In this document: one piece after another, positions 3,731 through 64,000 of the stretch | Position numbering within the stretch: position 1 is the stretch's first letter | Layout of the letters: every line of letters starts with the position of its first letter | Assembly (NCBI RefSeq): GCF_001026905.1 | Contig: NZ_LAQL01000002.1 | Coordinates: 186,001-250,000 of the forward strand | Direction: 5' to 3' | Origin: Kiloniella spongiae | GTDB lineage: Bacteria; Pseudomonadota; Alphaproteobacteria; Kiloniellales; Kiloniellaceae | DNA: 64,000 nt | Translations under genes and position numbers: made by a program | Notes under the pieces: generated by a model | Seen by the model: the letters and a program-made list of their open reading frames with translations, nothing else | Databases searched by the model: none | Told to the model about the DNA's origin: nothing

Positions 3731-5053
3731 ATGTTTTCGGCAAGTCGTAGAAGCAGCAAAAGATCAATCAACATCTGGCCTGGTTTCGTTGACGCCTTGG
3801 CAACGCTGCTCCTTGTAATCATTTTCGTACTCATGGTCTTTATGGTTGCACAATTTACCCTAAGCAATGCGCTAAGCGGTAAAGATAAAGCGCTATCGAA
3901 CCTGAACAGGGAAATAAGCGAACTTGCCGAATTACTCTCACTCGAAAAATCTGCAAATACCAGACTGCGTTCCAGCGTTACCCAGCTTACGACAGAGCTA
4001 CAGAGTTCAATATCTTCACGTGACAGTTTAGCAAACCAACTGGCCGCTCTTTCAGAAGACAAGGAAAACCTGGAAGGTGAGTTACTTTCCGTCAGTAAAG
4101 AATTAAAAGATATTATCAGCGCACAGTCCTTACTACAGGAAAATAATGACCAGCTTGAAGCAGAGAAACAAAAGCTTCTAAATGAGCAAAAAACTATTCA
4201 AGATCAGCTTTCAGCACTGGAACTCGCTGCAGCAAAATTATCGGCGGAATCTGCACTCGTGAATGCAGAACTGGAAGATGCATACAAGGTTATTGAAGCC
4301 GACAAAGAGAAAGTCGAAACTCAGCTTGCAGAAATAGCCTTATTAAAAGAACTCCGCGATAATCTAACCGAAAAGCTAGCGACAGCAGAGACTGATATTT
4401 CCGGCCAAAAGGCACTTACAGAAGAGGCCCAAACCGAAGTCGTACTTCTAAATCAACAGATTGCTGCACTTCGCAAACAGCTTTCAGATATCTCGGCGAC
4501 CTTGGAAATAACCGAAGCCATCAATGCCGCACAGGAAACCCAGATTATTGACCTCGGCAAGCGTTTGAACGTTGCTCTCGCGACCAAAGTTCAGCAGCTT
4601 GCTAAATACAGATCAGAATTCTTTGGCAAGCTACGCGAGGTCCTTGGAAACCGACAAGACATACGTATTGTTGGCGATCGCTTCGTCTTTCAGTCAGAAG
4701 TTCTCTTTTCCAGTGGAAAAGCAACATTAGAAGCTGGCGGTCAAGAACAACTGGGGCAACTTGCAAAAACGCTCCGAGAGCTGTCTGGCAACATCCCTGA
4801 TGATATTGATTGGATTCTACGTGTTGACGGGCACACTGATGTTCAACCAATCTCCACTGCCGAATTTCCCTCTAACTGGGAACTTTCAACAGCAAGGGCT
4901 ATATCGGTGGTCAAGTACCTTATAACTCAGGGCATACCAGCATCAAGACTAGCGGCCACTGGCTTTGGTCAATTCCAGCCCCTGGATAGCAGTCGTGATG
5001 AAATAGCCTTCAGACGTAATCGCCGAATCGAACTTAAGCTGACACAGCGATAA
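3731..5053 (+). CDS. MotB-like protein: membrane anchor, coiled coil, OmpA C-terminal domain
   Basis: 440 residues. One N-terminal membrane helix (about 19-43) carries Asp21 in the context WPGFVDALATLL, the position of the proton-binding Asp of MotB/TolR. Residues about 50-275 are a long heptad-like coiled coil rich in Leu, Glu, Gln and Ala. The C-terminal ~140 residues are a full OmpA/MotB peptidoglycan-binding domain with DGHTD, NWELSTARA and FRRNRRIEL. It is the second subunit of the channel pair with the preceding gene. The long periplasmic coiled coil would let the complex reach the wall. A terminator follows directly. Confidence 0.88.
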   Translation: MFSASRRSSKRSINIWPGFVDALATLLLVIIFVLMVFMVAQFTLSNALSGKDKALSNLNREISELAELLSLEKSANTRLRSSVTQLTTELQSSISSRDSLANQLAALSEDKENLEGELLSVSKELKDIISAQSLLQENNDQLEAEKQKLLNEQKTIQDQLSALELAAAKLSAESALVNAELEDAYKVIEADKEKVETQLAEIALLKELRDNLTEKLATAETDISGQKALTEEAQTEVVLLNQQIAALRKQLSDISATLEITEAINAAQETQIIDLGKRLNVALATKVQQLAKYRSEFFGKLREVLGNRQDIRIVGDRFVFQSEVLFSSGKATLEAGGQEQLGQLAKTLRELSGNIPDDIDWILRVDGHTDVQPISTAEFPSNWELSTARAISVVKYLITQGIPASRLAATGFGQFQPLDSSRDEIAFRRNRRIELKLTQR

Positions 5054-5099
5054 AAAAGGCTCCTGAGATGAATTAGACATTCTCAGCAGCCTTTTTTAA
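5054..5099 (+). terminator. Terminator after the envelope module
   Basis: Inverted repeat GGCT-CTGAGA...TCTCAG-AGCC followed by TTTTTT; the A-run before it makes it potentially bidirectional, serving the ABC exporter gene on the other strand. Confidence 0.75.
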
Positions 5100-5184
5100 T
5101 TTTTCAAAACCTGTGTTTATTAAAATAATCTTATCAATGTCCTCTTTTCCCCAGAAGACGAAATTAAAAGATTACAACAATATC

Positions 5185-7017
5185 TCAGCTTGCAGCTTGA
5201 ACCGTTAGTTCAGCTTCCATATCCGGACCGAACTGTAACTCTGCCAATCGTGCATAGAGGCCGTCCTGCTTAACCAATTCAGCATGCGTTCCACTTGCGA
5301 CAATACGCCCTTCGTCCATAACGAGAATACGATCCGCTTTTAAGACTGTCGCCAAACGGTGAGCAATCATCAGTGTTGTTCGACCATCCAGAAGGTTATC
5401 CAAAGCCTTCTGAACCGCCACTTCACTTTGAGAATCTAAAGCTGAAGTAGCCTCATCCAGTAGTAAAATCTCAGGATCTCTCAAGATCGCCCGGGCAATA
5501 GCAAGGCGCTGTCTCTGCCCACCAGAAAGGCGTACGCCCTTTTCGCCAAGATAGGTGTCATACCCGTCAGGAAGCTTTTCCAAAAACTCATGCGCAGAAG
5601 CCGCTTTAGCTGCATTGACAATCTCATCGCGACTGGCATCTGGACGGCCATAACGAATATTTTCGTAAGCAGTGACCGAGAAAACCACAGGCTCCTGAGA
5701 AACCAGACCGATATGTTTGCGCATTTCCACAGGATCAAAGTTAGGAATATCCACACCATCAATCTTCACCCCCCCCTTTTGCACATCATAGTAGCGGAGC
5801 AACAATTGGAAAACAGTGGTCTTGCCAGCTCCTGAAGGGCCGACAATCGCGACCTTCTCACCCGCCTTAATATCCGCAGAAAAACCGATCATCGCCGATT
5901 GCGTGGGCCGCGATGGATAATTGAAACTCACATCAGAAAAAGAAACAGCACCTTTGATCTTTGCCGGCAACGGCGTTGGCACTTCTGGTGCCGCAATATC
6001 TGTTTCAAGAGCCAATAAGCTTAACAATCTCTCTGTTGCCCCTGCAGCACGTTGCAAATCACCAATAACCTCGCTAAAGGCCCCGAGAGATCCAGCAACA
6101 ACAATTGCATAGAAGACAAAGGATGACAGCTCACCCGCAGTTATACGTCCCTCCAAAACGTCGCGTCCACCAACCCAAAGAATCGCGCTGATAGAGCCAA
6201 AAACCAAAACAATCACAATGGCCGTCAAAAGAGCACGAAAACGGATTCGCGTTACAGCTGTTGTAAAAGCATCTTCAACCCGGCTAGAAAAATATTGGCG
6301 ATCAAGGTCCTCGTGACTAAATGCCTGAACCGTTCGAATCGCTCCGATTGTCTCATCTGCATAGACACCGACATCCGCAATCCGATCCTGACTGTCTTTA
6401 CTCAATGTCCGCACTTTGCGCCCAAAAAATAGAATCGGTATTAAAACAAAAGGAATAACAAGCGCAACAAACCCTGTTAATTTCGGCGATGTGATAATGA
6501 GAAGAACTAAGCCACCAAAAAACATCAATAAATTACGAAGAGCAATCGAGAAGGATGATCCGACAACCACCTGTAGAAGTGTTGTATCCGTTGTCAGTCT
6601 CGAAAGGACCTCTCCGCTCCTGGTGACTTCGAAAAAGGCAGGTGACATTTTGATTATATGCCCGAACACGGCTGAACGAATATCAGCAACAACCCGTTCC
6701 CCAATCCACGAAACCAGGAAATATCGCGAATAACTGGCCAAGGCTAAAAGCACCGTCACACCAAACAAAACAAAAACAGCCTGATCAAGTAATGCGCTAT
6801 TACCACTAGAAAATCCCTGATCAATCAAGGCTCTAAGCCCTCTTCCAAGACCAAGAACTGTACCCGCAGCGATAACAAGCGCAATCATCGCACCACAAAT
6901 CTGAAGTTTATAGGGGCGCACAAATTGCCACAGCAGCAACAGGTGTTTTAACTCTTTGCTTTTAGGTGCATCTTCTTTTGATGCGACAGCTAAATTCTTT
7001 TCACCGTTGCGGCTCAT
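5185..7017 (-). CDS. ABC exporter, fused permease/ATPase (MsbA/BmrA type)
   Basis: 610 residues with an N-terminal six-helix exporter domain (about 40-330) and a C-terminal ATPase. Walker A GPSGAGKTT is at about residue 390, the signature LSGGQRQR at about 497, Walker B ILLLDEATSALD at about 516, and the switch His lies in IAHRL. One gene encodes the half-transporter, so it should act as a homodimer. Lipid A, lipid or multidrug export are all possible for this family; the sequence does not decide. It is monocistronic, convergent with the MotB-like gene and divergent from rpmE. Confidence 0.9.
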   Translation of the reverse strand: MSRNGEKNLAVASKEDAPKSKELKHLLLLWQFVRPYKLQICGAMIALVIAAGTVLGLGRGLRALIDQGFSSGNSALLDQAVFVLFGVTVLLALASYSRYFLVSWIGERVVADIRSAVFGHIIKMSPAFFEVTRSGEVLSRLTTDTTLLQVVVGSSFSIALRNLLMFFGGLVLLIITSPKLTGFVALVIPFVLIPILFFGRKVRTLSKDSQDRIADVGVYADETIGAIRTVQAFSHEDLDRQYFSSRVEDAFTTAVTRIRFRALLTAIVIVLVFGSISAILWVGGRDVLEGRITAGELSSFVFYAIVVAGSLGAFSEVIGDLQRAAGATERLLSLLALETDIAAPEVPTPLPAKIKGAVSFSDVSFNYPSRPTQSAMIGFSADIKAGEKVAIVGPSGAGKTTVFQLLLRYYDVQKGGVKIDGVDIPNFDPVEMRKHIGLVSQEPVVFSVTAYENIRYGRPDASRDEIVNAAKAASAHEFLEKLPDGYDTYLGEKGVRLSGGQRQRLAIARAILRDPEILLLDEATSALDSQSEVAVQKALDNLLDGRTTLMIAHRLATVLKADRILVMDEGRIVASGTHAELVKQDGLYARLAELQFGPDMEAELTVQAAS

Positions 7018-8788: not shown

Positions 8789-9288
8789 GGCAATATATCT
8801 AACAGACATTACGATCTATGTCGTTTGGTCTGTTCGTCCACCCTGTCAACTTGCCTTTGTTACGCAAGAGGTTATGAAGACTCGAGCCTCTCGTCAAGGA
8901 CTTGTTTTGTTTTTTGACATTTTTACGACAAATTTCGCCTTTTTTCAGGCGCTTTTCTTTGTTCCAATTTAAGCATAATCAAATAATATCAAAGTATTAA
9001 ACAAAAAAAATCCGCCGGTAAAAAACCGGCGGCAAGTCAACAGGGAGGCATCAAAAAAAAGATAAATAGTAATAAAGGAACTAAAAAACCCTTTTTGACA
9101 TTACAAGATTATAACAAATCAACTAAAAAAGAGTTAACAGCATAATGCTTGCTTCTACTCTTAAAGATTTAAGGTCTGATTTCTCATTTTCAAGAGGCAA
9201 AAACAAAGGGAAGCATAATAAAAAACTTCCCCTGTTCTTCTTGATTTATCCAAACAGGAATAAATAACAATAATAATAGCTTGCAAAG
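8789..9288. other. 500-bp AT-rich non-coding stretch
   Basis: No credible gene. It holds the minus-strand terminator at 9003-9032 and a weaker hairpin (GGGAAG...CTTCCC near 9211-9234). A short open frame in 8787-8972 lacks a ribosome-binding site and resembles nothing known. The 3' untranslated region of the hydroxybutyrate dehydrogenase gene would run through much of it. Confidence 0.5.
9003..9032 (-). terminator. Minus-strand terminator downstream of bdhA
   Basis: Perfect 8-bp GC-rich stem (CCGCCGGT 9012-9019 with ACCGGCGG 9025-9032), followed on the minus strand by eight T. It lies about 260 bp past the bdhA stop. Confidence 0.8.
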
Positions 9289-10077
9289 CTATTGTGCCAT
9301 CCAACCGCCATCAACCGAATAAGGCGCACCCGTCATTTGATCCGCAGCATCACTACACAAAAAAGCTGCAAGTTTTCCGATTTGCTCTGGTGTAGAAAAA
9401 TCCTGAGTAGGCGTTTTCTCTGAAACTAAAGCCCGTTTTTCATCATCAAAAGTCTTGCCGCTCTCCTTTGCACGCGCTTCAATCTGCGCACGAACCAGAT
9501 CAGTTAAAACCCAACCGGGGCATATCGCATTCACAGTAACGCCCTGTGTTGCAACTTCCAGGGCAACAGCCTTCGTCAACCCAACAACACCGTGTTTCGC
9601 CGCAACATAAGCTGATTTGTTTGGCGAAGCCGTTAAACCATGCGCAGAAGCGACATTGATAATACGCCCCCACCCCTTTTTTTTCATCTCAGGCAATGCA
9701 GCCTTAATACTGTGAAAGGCCGACGAGAGATTAATCGCAATAACCGCATCCCAACGATCTTCGGGAAACTCATCCACAGGCGACACATTTTGAATACCTG
9801 CGTTGTTTACAAGAATATCAACACCACCAAGTGTTTTCTGAGCCTCGGCAATCATGTCTCTGATATCATCAGGCTTGCTCATATCTGCAGATGAGTAAGC
9901 CACTTTAACACCATGAGCATGAGCAATTTTTTTCTCCAGATCTGCAATTTCAGATCGATCGCCAAAACCGTTCAACATGATATCAGCACCTTCAGCAGCA
10001 AGGCATTCAGCAATTCCTTTGCCAATACCACTGGTCGATCCTGTAATAACCGCCACTTTCCCTTTGAGGCCGGGCAT
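9289..10077 (-). CDS. bdhA: D-3-hydroxybutyrate dehydrogenase (short-chain dehydrogenase)
   Basis: 262 residues, the usual length. The NAD-binding motif TGSTSGIG is at about residues 12-19, NNAG at about 90, and the catalytic Ser-Tyr-Lys in NVASAHG and SAYVAAKHG. The long insert before the C-terminus (RAKESGKTFDDEKRALV, then TPTQDFSTPEQIG) and the GGWMAQ end are typical of 3-hydroxybutyrate dehydrogenase rather than other SDRs. It oxidises 3-hydroxybutyrate to acetoacetate with NAD+, a step in use of polyhydroxybutyrate. AGGAGA lies before the ATG. An AEC carrier gene sits 33 bp upstream, probably in the same transcript. Confidence 0.9.
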   Translation of the reverse strand: MPGLKGKVAVITGSTSGIGKGIAECLAAEGADIMLNGFGDRSEIADLEKKIAHAHGVKVAYSSADMSKPDDIRDMIAEAQKTLGGVDILVNNAGIQNVSPVDEFPEDRWDAVIAINLSSAFHSIKAALPEMKKKGWGRIINVASAHGLTASPNKSAYVAAKHGVVGLTKAVALEVATQGVTVNAICPGWVLTDLVRAQIEARAKESGKTFDDEKRALVSEKTPTQDFSTPEQIGKLAAFLCSDAADQMTGAPYSVDGGWMAQ

Positions 10078-60938: not shown

Positions 60939-60966
60939 AAAACCCCAAGGTTTCCCTTGGGGTTTT
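60939..60966. terminator. Bidirectional terminator between the TSUP gene and the tRNA-Val 3' end
   Basis: Perfect 12-bp stem AAAACCCCAAGG (60939-60950) with CCTTGGGGTTTT (60955-60966). It would end the TSUP transcript and, on the minus strand, originally the tRNA transcript. Confidence 0.85.
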
Positions 60967-60968
60967 CA

Positions 60969-61016
60969 TGGTGGGCGTAACTGGGATTGAACCAGTGACC
61001 CCTTCGATGTCAACGA
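60969..61016 (-). other. 3' half of tRNA-Val(GAC): attachment site of an integrative element
   Basis: On the minus strand these 48 bases read as a tRNA from the anticodon stem to CCA: anticodon loop TTGACAT (GAC), 3' stem CGAAG, variable loop GGGTC, T-arm ACTGG-TTCAATC-CCAGT, acceptor strand TACGCCC and ACCA. The 5' half (which should begin GGGCGTA) is not found upstream on that strand. A cut within the anticodon stem beside an integrase is the usual sign of an att site created by recombination at a tRNA gene. Confidence 0.82.
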
Positions 61017-61072
61017 AAACGTAGTGCTTAAATGTCAAAGCTTTAGCCATTCCGTTCACAATGGAGATGTGA

Positions 61073-62047: not shown

Positions 62048-62100
62048 GATACCTAACTTATTTTATATGATTTAAACAGCTTTCAACCCCAATTGGAGAG

Positions 62101-63792
62101 CTAACTTTGATGGCTCTCCAACGTTTCGTTTAACTTCTTTTGATCAATCCAATTTATCAACTGGAATAACTCGCATAGCTTTAACCCACGTTTTGATAAT
62201 GAATAACTCAGAAGCTTATCCTCAGTACTATCGTGACGTACAGCATGCTCAGGTAAACTTTTCAATGCACGGTTGGTATTATATTTTCGAACGGGCTTTA
62301 TCTCTTTAGATGAAGAAAATTCAATTCTTTTAATAGCATCAGATATTTCTTCACAAGTAGCGATTTTTCCTAAACTCTCCAACCCCACAATACATCTCGG
62401 TAACTCGCGATGAAAAACGTCTCGATCACTTGTTAAGAAGTCAAGTTTTCGAAAAATATTGCTAATTTTTTCATGATAGTCCCTCATAGATCCTTCATTC
62501 GAGATTGTAATATCAGCGACGACCTCAGCGACACGTAACAATCCAAAACTAGCTTCCAGCTCATCATTGTTTTGAAAATCTTTAGGAGTACTACTAGCTG
62601 ATGAGCGTGCTCTAGCAACATTTCTTCCGTACCTTGTACGCATATCAGCAGTCACATGAACAACTATTGTATTTGGAAATACTTTTAAATACTCCAAGAG
62701 CTCTTCTGTCGTTCTTAACCCTGTCACTACAGTTATACAGTTATCACTCTCTCTACTGGTGTGATACTCAATAATTTCCTCAGCAACAGCTGCAAACCCT
62801 ATACTTTCCAAAAAGTTAAAAGCATCTTGTCCATCGGCTATTTCGTACTCTGCTTTACTTGCTATTTCCCTAAGAACTGTAGATGCCTCAATATGCTGAA
62901 TTATCAAGTTAGAGCCTGCGGAATTAAAGCGATGAAGATAATCACCAAACGTTGTTTTACCTGCACACTTCTCTCCAATAACAACGATATTATGATTTAG
63001 TTGTTTGAAGACATCTAATTCAAGTTGACTGGATTGAGAAGGCTCTTCATCAAAAGCCAACGTAGCTTCTGGTTGTTTCCGTAAAGAATAGTTTGTGGGC
63101 TTCAGGTTCATAGCAGCATTAAATTCATTTATGCGTTCTGCCAACATTAGAAGAGATTTCGCTCTAAAATCGTAATTTAATGACTCTTCAAATTCCATTT
63201 CCCCCAATCTTTTATCAGCTTCATCAGGGATCACCCAACCATTGAAAGTATCTGGTGTTAGCCAAGGGTATTGAGCATTAACGTTAAATCTAGGGGGTGT
63301 ATCTGCAACCACGCCTCTCGTCTCGCCATAAAAAAACATAGGTTCTGAAAGCGTTGGAATATGTAATGCTATATCAGACTTCACCGTAGCACTTCTATTG
63401 TTACCACGCTCTCTTAAAATTGCGTCTAGTTCTGAAAAGGATGTATCTTTAAACCACTCTTTAACTAACATACCAGGCACATCATCTTCACAGCTTAAAG
63501 CATCAATCCTCAAGGAAGTATCTTCGATAAAGAAGGCAGACTTCAACTCAACTTCTTCTTTTAATTGCTTGATTGCTTCTCTAAGAAGGTGCTTGGTGTT
63601 CTCTGAATAAGTCTCATCATATGGCTCTCTATGTGTAGAGTAATGACTGACTGATTGTCCCATTCTCCCAAAAACAGTTGTCGCTTGTAAAAATTTCTCA
63701 GGATTTGACGTGTAAAAATATACTTTCAACACCTTCTCATGGCGGTATGTATCATTATATGTCGGACGTATATTACGCAATTTTGAAGCCAT
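62101..63792 (-). CDS. HAM1-like nucleotide pyrophosphatase fused to a P-loop kinase
   Basis: 563 residues from the ATG at 63792; a TTG at 63807 is less likely. Residues about 22-225 resemble HAM1/RdgB inosine triphosphatase: VYFYTSNPEKF at the start, FIEDTSLRIDAL (Glu90, Asp91) in place of ADDSGLxVDAL, KSDIAL, FYGETRGVV, and a C-terminal YDFRAKSLL. Residues about 265-450 are a P-loop kinase with Walker A GEKCAGKTT at 273-281 and VVTGLRTTEELLEYLKVFP, like dephospho-CoA and archaeal UPF0200-type kinases. The last ~110 residues are unassigned. The start overlaps the stop of the upstream GHMP-kinase gene by 20 bases. Role unknown; a nucleotide or nucleotide-like substrate is inferred. Confidence 0.78.
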   Translation of the reverse strand: MASKLRNIRPTYNDTYRHEKVLKVYFYTSNPEKFLQATTVFGRMGQSVSHYSTHREPYDETYSENTKHLLREAIKQLKEEVELKSAFFIEDTSLRIDALSCEDDVPGMLVKEWFKDTSFSELDAILRERGNNRSATVKSDIALHIPTLSEPMFFYGETRGVVADTPPRFNVNAQYPWLTPDTFNGWVIPDEADKRLGEMEFEESLNYDFRAKSLLMLAERINEFNAAMNLKPTNYSLRKQPEATLAFDEEPSQSSQLELDVFKQLNHNIVVIGEKCAGKTTFGDYLHRFNSAGSNLIIQHIEASTVLREIASKAEYEIADGQDAFNFLESIGFAAVAEEIIEYHTSRESDNCITVVTGLRTTEELLEYLKVFPNTIVVHVTADMRTRYGRNVARARSSASSTPKDFQNNDELEASFGLLRVAEVVADITISNEGSMRDYHEKISNIFRKLDFLTSDRDVFHRELPRCIVGLESLGKIATCEEISDAIKRIEFSSSKEIKPVRKYNTNRALKSLPEHAVRHDSTEDKLLSYSLSKRGLKLCELFQLINWIDQKKLNETLESHQS

Positions 63793-64000
63793 CGTTGTTA
63801 AATTCAACTACTTGGAAAAAATTTAAATCTTGAGAAGAAGCAATCTTATTAATACATTCAAAAGCGTCCCAATTCTCCTCCTCAAAGATAGCATAAATCA
63901 ATGGCCCCATACTACTCATGCCACTTGCCACACCATCAATTTGATTTAGTTTTTTGATCAACAATCCAACTTGATTTGGCTGATTTACGATTTCTCTACG
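63773..64000 (-). CDS. GHMP-kinase superfamily protein, C-terminal part (cut by window)
   Basis: The frame is open to the right edge; the 75 visible residues are the C-terminus and the ATG lies outside. GVASGMSSMGPLIYAIFEEE is the glycine/serine-rich motif 3 of GHMP kinases such as beta-RFAP synthase and pantoate kinase, where GxGQSSWGPxVYA is usual, and the chain ends with an N-N-G element (EFNNDGFKIA). It overlaps the start of the HAM1-kinase fusion gene, so the two are translationally coupled. Substrate unknown. Confidence 0.65.
   Translation of the reverse strand, partial: RREIVNQPNQVGLLIKKLNQIDGVASGMSSMGPLIYAIFEEENWDAFECINKIASSQDLNFFQVVEFNNDGFKIA

Follow-up and report, generated by a model that had tools for sequence, protein, structure and literature searches.

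A mobile operon combining a beta-RFAP synthase/ForT-family enzyme, a HAM1-kinase fusion and a membrane PLD-like protein, with a possible role in handling a non-standard ribonucleotide

The DNA analyzed here is a stretch of 64,000 nucleotides from Kiloniella spongiae (contig positions 186001-250000 of a 4.47-Mb genome in 76 contigs; hereafter the window). Its right end carries a small operon, all on the minus strand, in which a gene for a probable membrane protein with a phospholipase D (PLD)-like domain is followed by a gene of the beta-ribofuranosylaminobenzene 5'-phosphate (beta-RFAP) synthase/ForT family and, last, by a gene that fuses a HAM1 domain to a P-loop kinase domain. The window edge cuts the synthase gene, and the DNA past that edge was also taken (L002, in which 4747-5559 corresponds to window-equivalent 64747-65559). 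This rightward extension, proposed in an initial annotation of the sequence, completed the operon with the synthase and membrane protein genes ahead of the fusion. We tentatively propose that this mobile operon of three to four genes builds and manages a non-standard ribonucleotide, most probably in conflicts involving phages or other mobile elements.

Relatives of the operon were drawn from plasmids, genome contigs and whole genomes. Counts refer to 11 loci: our own, two from Rhizobium, one each from Cupriavidus and Mesorhizobium, one each from metagenome-assembled genomes (MAGs) labeled Stygiobacter, Dechloromonas, Bacteroidales and Prevotella, and those of genomes G396 and G535. The membrane protein, the synthase and the kinase are each present in 11 of 11 loci, and HAM1 in ten, always in one chain with the kinase. 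At these ten fusion loci the same two genes precede the fusion in the same order, which argues that their association is not due to chance. The remaining locus (L017, in G535) encodes a stand-alone kinase in an operon without the HAM1 domain; neither the HAM1 counts (n = 10) nor the distance correlations include it. As this operon still has the other three parts, HAM1 would seem to be accessory to the system. A D12-type DNA methyltransferase gene lies ahead of the operon at 8 of the 11 loci. The genome contigs were scanned with short peptide patterns, a procedure that can miss relatives; 73 stretches matched and five were confirmed, all of them with all four genes. Pairwise distances of the three core genes had correlations of 0.927-0.951 across 10 loci; without the near-duplicates L011 and L013 these were 0.840-0.885, the lowest value being reached by 1 of 5000 permutations. 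Judged by these correlated sequence distances, the three core genes are co-inherited and travel together.

The operon occurs in Alpha- and Betaproteobacteria, in Bacteroidota and in the one Stygiobacter-labeled MAG (a genus of the Ignavibacteria); MAG assignments may reflect contamination, the Stygiobacter one above all. By profile or protein search, the fusion turned up once among 385 genomes of the class (our own), twice among 398 of the phylum (our own and G396, with G535 matching over the kinase alone), once among 393 of the order to which G747 belongs (G747 itself, two others matching over the kinase only) and once among 394 of the family that includes G744 (G744 itself). It is present in 1 of 41 relatives, again our own, and eight of the others belong to the same genus. 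G907 and G799 gave kinase-only matches that are not part of such an operon; the operon counts do not include them. Cupriavidus sp. EM10 (L006), likewise not among the 11 loci, carries an operon like that of L004 with its genes broken by frameshifts, which may reflect decay or sequencing error.

The gene next to the fusion had been annotated as a GHMP kinase. It does belong to a GHMP-fold family, but to the one of beta-RFAP synthase and ForT, which uses 5-phosphoribosyl 1-pyrophosphate (PRPP) and not ATP. The product scored 194.6 bits against TIGR00144 (cut-off 113.5), 23.4 against Pfam GHMP_N (cut-off 22.3) and 17.2 against GHMP_C (cut-off 21); since the PRPP-using family scores far higher, and the Protein Data Bank (PDB) match and the residues agree, the reading as an ATP-dependent GHMP kinase was set aside. 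A profile built from 11 homologues matched ForT (6yqq, E 4.7e-44) best among solved structures. ForT is the sole solved synthase of the family among the PDB matches listed, and hence this match alone does not favor ForT over RFAP chemistry. As excerpts of PMC8183095 describe it, ForT couples PRPP to an aromatic dicarboxylate, yielding a C-nucleotide that is an antibiotic intermediate, and contacts PRPP through R19, H99, T106, R135 and S139. The equivalent residues of the synthase, R8, H90, T97, R126 and S130, are conserved in 11 of 11 homologues. So is R22, the counterpart of R26 in a methanogen RFAP synthase, which affects the binding of p-aminobenzoate there, in an enzyme that also needs D19 (PMC6787355, in excerpts). 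By homology, the synthase would thus use PRPP and an aromatic acid to make a C-nucleotide.

Synthesis of tetrahydromethanopterin (H4MPT) is disfavored for this enzyme by its score against NF040726, the H4MPT beta-RFAP equivalog (222.5 bits, below the cut-off of 328), and by its separate place in the synthase tree. In that tree, the 11 operon rows split from five rows of H4MPT context in 100% of 200 bootstrap trees, a test in which ForT, L018 and Halobellus were not included. The tree is unrooted and shows three clades, namely H4MPT with Halobellus, ForT with L018, and the operon, and which clade is nearest to the operon cannot be read from it. The operon clade's own fork has support values of 91/86, and our synthase forms a long branch. 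The synthase is the only TIGR00144 match in its own genome, and five of five other genomes likewise have one match each.

Other members of the synthase family were met on plasmids. The L018 homologue (8986-10017; Mesorhizobium sp. L-2-11), which groups with ForT (100/99), lies near purC- and purH-like genes, as does that of Aminobacter sp. SS-2016 (L019); they may mark a formycin-like C-nucleoside cluster in bacteria associated with Lotus. On a Neorhizobium sp. EC2-8 plasmid (L020, 7884-9028) the homologue is split over two frames, and by eye its neighbors resemble GTP cyclohydrolase, pyruvoyl-tetrahydropterin synthase, xanthine dehydrogenase and amidohydrolase genes.

The fusion of HAM1 and P-loop kinase, recognized in the initial annotation from the sequence, is borne out by a single 568-aa frame, by Pfam and by structure prediction, which had been named there as the test and in which both folds are seen. 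The model has a mean predicted local distance difference test score (pLDDT) of 63.6, with the HAM1 and kinase domains mostly at 70-90. The annotated 20-base overlap with the synthase gene holds for a start at ATG 63792; it would be 35 bases for the TTG and none for GTG 63732, the position where homologues begin.

Ham1p_like (PF01725) matched residues 29-224 with 55 bits (cut-off 22.5), and the predicted structure of residues 27-237 matched 1v7r with a Z score of 20.2 and a root-mean-square deviation (rmsd) of 2.4 over 185 positions. The RdgB/HAM1 equivalog TIGR00042 was not reached (39.2, cut-off 145.35). A housekeeping role as the HAM1 of the cell is ruled out, since a separate canonical HAM1 is encoded elsewhere in the genome (202 bits). 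K38, E61, E95, D96 and K116 are conserved in 10 of 10 family members, and these include the SNxxK lysine (K38) and the acidic catalytic pair (E95 and D96). The initial annotation had read EDTSL, in place of the usual HAM1 motif, as a sign of shifted substrate choice. The motif is indeed there, but the same site reads EDSGL in PH1917 and DDTGL in the Plasmodium falciparum ITPase, and both acids stay. A better sign lies near the end of the domain. The SHR motif found there in PH1917, TM0159 and MJ0226 is replaced by DFR in all 10 family members, behind a PWL...F-N-W segment. SHR has a role in the base pocket of HAM1 proteins, and its replacement suggests that the preferred base probably differs from that of inosine triphosphate (ITP) pyrophosphatases, so that activity on ITP or xanthosine triphosphate is not to be assumed.

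The kinase domain has an adenylate-kinase-like fold. Its model (residues 271-457) matched the AMP-bound 3lw7 with a Z score of 21.4 and an rmsd of 2.0 over 168 positions, and its sequence profile matched the same UPF0200/AdkA-like protein (E 6.3e-18). Within residues 274-421, AAA_18 (29.3 bits, cut-off 29.4) and AAA_33 (23.8, cut-off 27) both stayed under their Pfam cut-offs. Matches to phage families were weak, namely a kinase (phrog_10255, E 5.4e-7) and a deoxynucleoside monophosphate kinase (phrog_139, E 3e-5), and would fit a nucleotide monophosphate as substrate. At another locus (L026, 8935-10028) a stand-alone UPF0200-like kinase lies directly ahead of a gene of the dCMP-deaminase family, a hint that kinases of this kind may act on deoxynucleotides. 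In the C-terminal region, no family exceeded its cut-off in five homologues (HTH_36 with E 0.042 in one, DUF2004 with E 0.0024 in another); by eye the region looks winged-helix-like in the homologues.

The membrane protein model (mean pLDDT 75.6) starts with helices that are probably transmembrane, followed by the PLD-like domain. This domain matched 4urj (Z 13.8, rmsd 2.4 over 138 positions), NucT (6ehi, Z 13.7) and TrmB (2f5t, Z 12.4, titled a sugar-binding domain); the PLD-like domain of TrmB/TrmBL2 is among the structural matches. A search of PDB sequences with a membrane protein profile gave no significant match. The HxK(x)4D (HKD) catalytic motif is missing in 11 of 11 homologues, with the Asp alone remaining, so that nuclease or lipase activity of the PLD kind is not expected and the protein is probably neither. 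A sensor or effector role could be envisaged by analogy with TrmB.

The operon lies on an integrative mobile island, in agreement with its initial placement on a mobile element. This is confirmed by an integrase, by attachment (att) repeats and by empty sites in relatives. The right copy of the 79-bp repeat (contig 264854-264932) overlaps a tRNA-Val gene and differs from the left copy by one mismatch; the element between the repeats measures 17,915 bp. A tRNA search of the window found none. Among eight other genomes of the genus, G1534, G1539, G1538 and G257 have a single uninterrupted att site with the flanks joined, G1536 shows the same flank overlap with a shorter right-flank match, and in the remaining three the two flanks are not at one place. 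A 26-bp inverted partial copy of tRNA-Val was observed within the island, next to its right end (L003 6728-6753, contig 264728-264753). The features of the operon and of the left end of the island are collected in Table 1. In a promoter scan, 6 sites were found against a mean of 12.8 in shuffles, i.e., fewer than in the shuffles.

Table 1. Features of the operon and of the left end of the island (window positions; positions above 64000 are window-equivalent)
Feature	Position	Strand	Basis
attL, left copy of 79-bp direct repeat, includes 3' part of tRNA-Val	60939..61017		repeat comparison
Tyrosine recombinase (integrase), 324 aa	61073..62047	+	Pfam Phage_integrase, 82.5 bits
Terminator-like hairpin, 11-pair stem, between convergent integrase and operon	62093..62121		consensus match only
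Fusion gene, 568 aa	62101..63807	-	open frame; start uncertain (TTG 63807, ATG 63792 or GTG 63732)
C-terminal region, residues 458-568, no assigned fold	62101..62436	-	model pLDDT <50
UPF0200/adenylate-kinase-like P-loop kinase domain, residues 271-457	62437..62997	-	profile and structure matches
HAM1/ITPase-like domain, residues 27-237	63097..63729	-	catalytic-type residues conserved; DFR in place of SHR
Beta-RFAP synthase/ForT-family gene, 324 aa	63773..64000 in window, on to 64747	-	TIGR00144
Probable membrane PLD-like gene	64747-65559, outside window	-	structure model

Besides the operon, the island carries genes for a UzuA-like GIY-YIG protein, a NucC-like DUF6602 protein and type I restriction, together with genes without known function. 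The hsdR product matched REase_I with 1057.5 bits; hsdM and hsdS were read from open frames only. The NucC-like DUF6602 protein and two proteins without a significant family match (L002 8165-9094, 9938-10783 and 11083-12627) are possible further defense genes.

Taken together, the parts could act as follows. From homology and the residues kept, the synthase would give a C-nucleotide monophosphate by linking the ribose 5-phosphate of PRPP with an aromatic carboxylic acid, possibly p-aminobenzoate. The UPF0200-type kinase domain would phosphorylate this C-nucleotide, and a host kinase could finish the triphosphate. The PLD-like pseudoenzyme domain of the membrane protein might then bind the product and act at the membrane, and the HAM1 domain would cleave the triphosphate to monophosphate and pyrophosphate, which could end the response or protect the host. 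The methyltransferase, where present, may mark host DNA. That the genes serve an unusual-nucleotide pathway had been put forward at the outset and is plausible, though not for the reasons then given; ordinary nucleotide salvage was not seen around the 11 operon loci. A defense role of the operon is plausible. More specifically, and with greater reserve, we suggest that the operon might represent a new class of immunity, in which a C-nucleotide made by a PRPP-dependent C-glycoside synthase serves as an alarm molecule or a viral poison, is read by the membrane PLD-like pseudoenzyme and is cleared by HAM1.

The genomic context was examined with PADLOC 2.0.0, bearing in mind that a model match alone does not prove function. 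The three window-operon proteins had no model match at E 1; among the relatives, membrane proteins matched at E 0.011 and 0.039 only, and methyltransferases of two relatives matched type II methyltransferase models. Twenty flanking proteins from other loci were scanned with a threshold of E 1e-5. In a first set, 8 of 10 matched, among them a dCTPase beside the G535 operon (E 6.4e-136), HerA and PD-Lambda-5_B (L012), PDC-S71 and PDC-M29A (L014), and PDC-M62B and PDC-S01 (L015). The second set gave a single match among 10 proteins, at L011 and to helicase-type models that we regard as generic.

Several observations weigh against the proposed conflict role. The flanking proteins were picked by hand, and defense-labeled neighbors occur at only 5 of 11 loci (our own island, L012, L014, L015 and L017), while the scanned proteins gave no specific defense match at L004, L005, L007, L011, L013 and L016, and ABC-transporter genes are among the neighbors at L005 and L007. 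Neither the fusion nor the synthase matched phage records, and a scan of viral contigs with short peptide patterns, which can miss relatives, found none; a phage origin of the operon thus finds no support there. As for the chemistry, D15 of the synthase, equivalent to D19 of the methanogen enzyme, is Asp in only 4 of 11 homologues, so that the aromatic substrate may be one other than p-aminobenzoate, or the reaction another. A PLD-like fold alone is no proof of ligand binding, and the operon of G535 manages without HAM1.

The main rival is that of an antimetabolite, in which phage RNA or DNA synthesis is poisoned by a C-nucleotide triphosphate that the synthase and the kinase produce, HAM1 protects the host by destroying the excess, and the membrane protein is an anchor or an infection sensor. 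Comparable poisoning by a nucleotide analogue is exerted by viperin and by formycin-type antibiotics. We consider this unlikely, if still a serious contender: the ForT product is an antibiotic intermediate, yeast HAM1 is tied to base-analogue resistance (PMC5940212 and PMC3792807, in excerpts), and HAM1 and the kinase share a chain at 10 of 11 loci, but the PLD-like protein in every locus would suit a reader of the product, and the operon of G535 lacks the HAM1 domain. It is improbable that the HAM1 domain is instead a sensor, as in the Kongming system, that binds an abnormal infection nucleotide and switches on partner proteins. The Kongming protein KomB is among its structural matches (9xvc, Z 19.1), the altered SHR motif would be compatible with such a task, and in excerpts of PMC12948488 and PMC12774641 a modified nucleotide, dITP, is the signal that activates KomB-KomC, KomC being an NADase. 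Kongming is also a precedent for a modified-nucleotide signal. However, KomB is no closer than the ordinary ITPase 1v7r, the catalytic-type residues are all kept, and the scanned island proteins, which did not include those of hsdM and hsdS, showed no SIR2 protein or adenosine deaminase.

Ordinary accessory metabolism, i.e., an H4MPT-like cofactor or a C-nucleoside secondary metabolite with no role in conflict, likewise seems to us improbable. Of 10 plasmid neighborhoods of other synthase homologues, examined from 40 matching records, six are H4MPT or one-carbon gene sets and two lie near purC/purH-like genes; L005 and L007, where the one flanking protein scanned at each gave no defense match, would also suit such a role. 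Yet the operons showed no H4MPT-type gene (the rest of our genome was not searched for them), the synthase stays below the H4MPT equivalog cut-off, and the patchy spread, the island location and the restriction- or defense-labeled neighbors at five loci also speak against it. Least probable in our judgment is a restriction-like DNA-modification system, with the methyltransferase at its center and the other genes modifying nucleotides for DNA. The D12 genes ahead of the operon, their matches to type II models and the PLD fold of restriction enzymes such as BfiI speak for it; against it, no D12-type methyltransferase was found within 18 kb at L016 and L017, or in our own genome by a search without a positive control, and the absence of HKD leaves little room for a PLD-type nuclease.

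Should the non-standard ribonucleotide reading prove true, it would implicate C-nucleotides in bacterial conflict and indicate both new nucleotide analogues and a function for PLD-like membrane pseudoenzymes. The synthase family is known from methanopterin synthesis and from C-nucleoside antibiotics, and the mobile operon is a third setting for it. In several searches of the open-access literature, some of which showed only the top matches, no description of the operon was found and no paper joined beta-ribofuranosylaminobenzene with phage defense, or HAM1, GHMP and operon; by title, none of the papers on ribofuranosylaminobenzene was about defense. As an assembly the operon is considered new; its parts come from known families, and the function proposed for it here is a putative one.

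Compared with known systems, the synthase resembles beta-RFAP synthase in exceeding the TIGR00144 cut-off and in keeping the PRPP-site residues and the R26 equivalent, but differs in its NF040726 score, its clade, the loss of the D19 equivalent in 7 of 11 operon synthases, and the company it keeps, H4MPT genes not being seen in the operons. ForT, the formycin C-nucleoside synthase, is its best solved match and has the same PRPP contacts, but belongs to a separate clade, and no purC/purH-like genes were seen in the operons. With Kongming (KomABC) the operon shares a HAM1-fold protein in a small operon and, as far as the excerpts cited above go, nucleotide kinase chemistry. It is not a member of that system: its HAM1 is fused to the kinase, and the synthase and the membrane PLD-like protein replace KomA, a deaminase, and KomC, a SIR2 protein. 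The kinase has the fold and sequence of the UPF0200/AdkA-like kinases (3lw7, 3h0k), but is fused to HAM1 and a C-terminal region. Finally, the PLD-like domain shares its fold with those of TrmB/TrmBL2 and FAM83, whereas in the operon it sits behind predicted N-terminal helices that we read as transmembrane.

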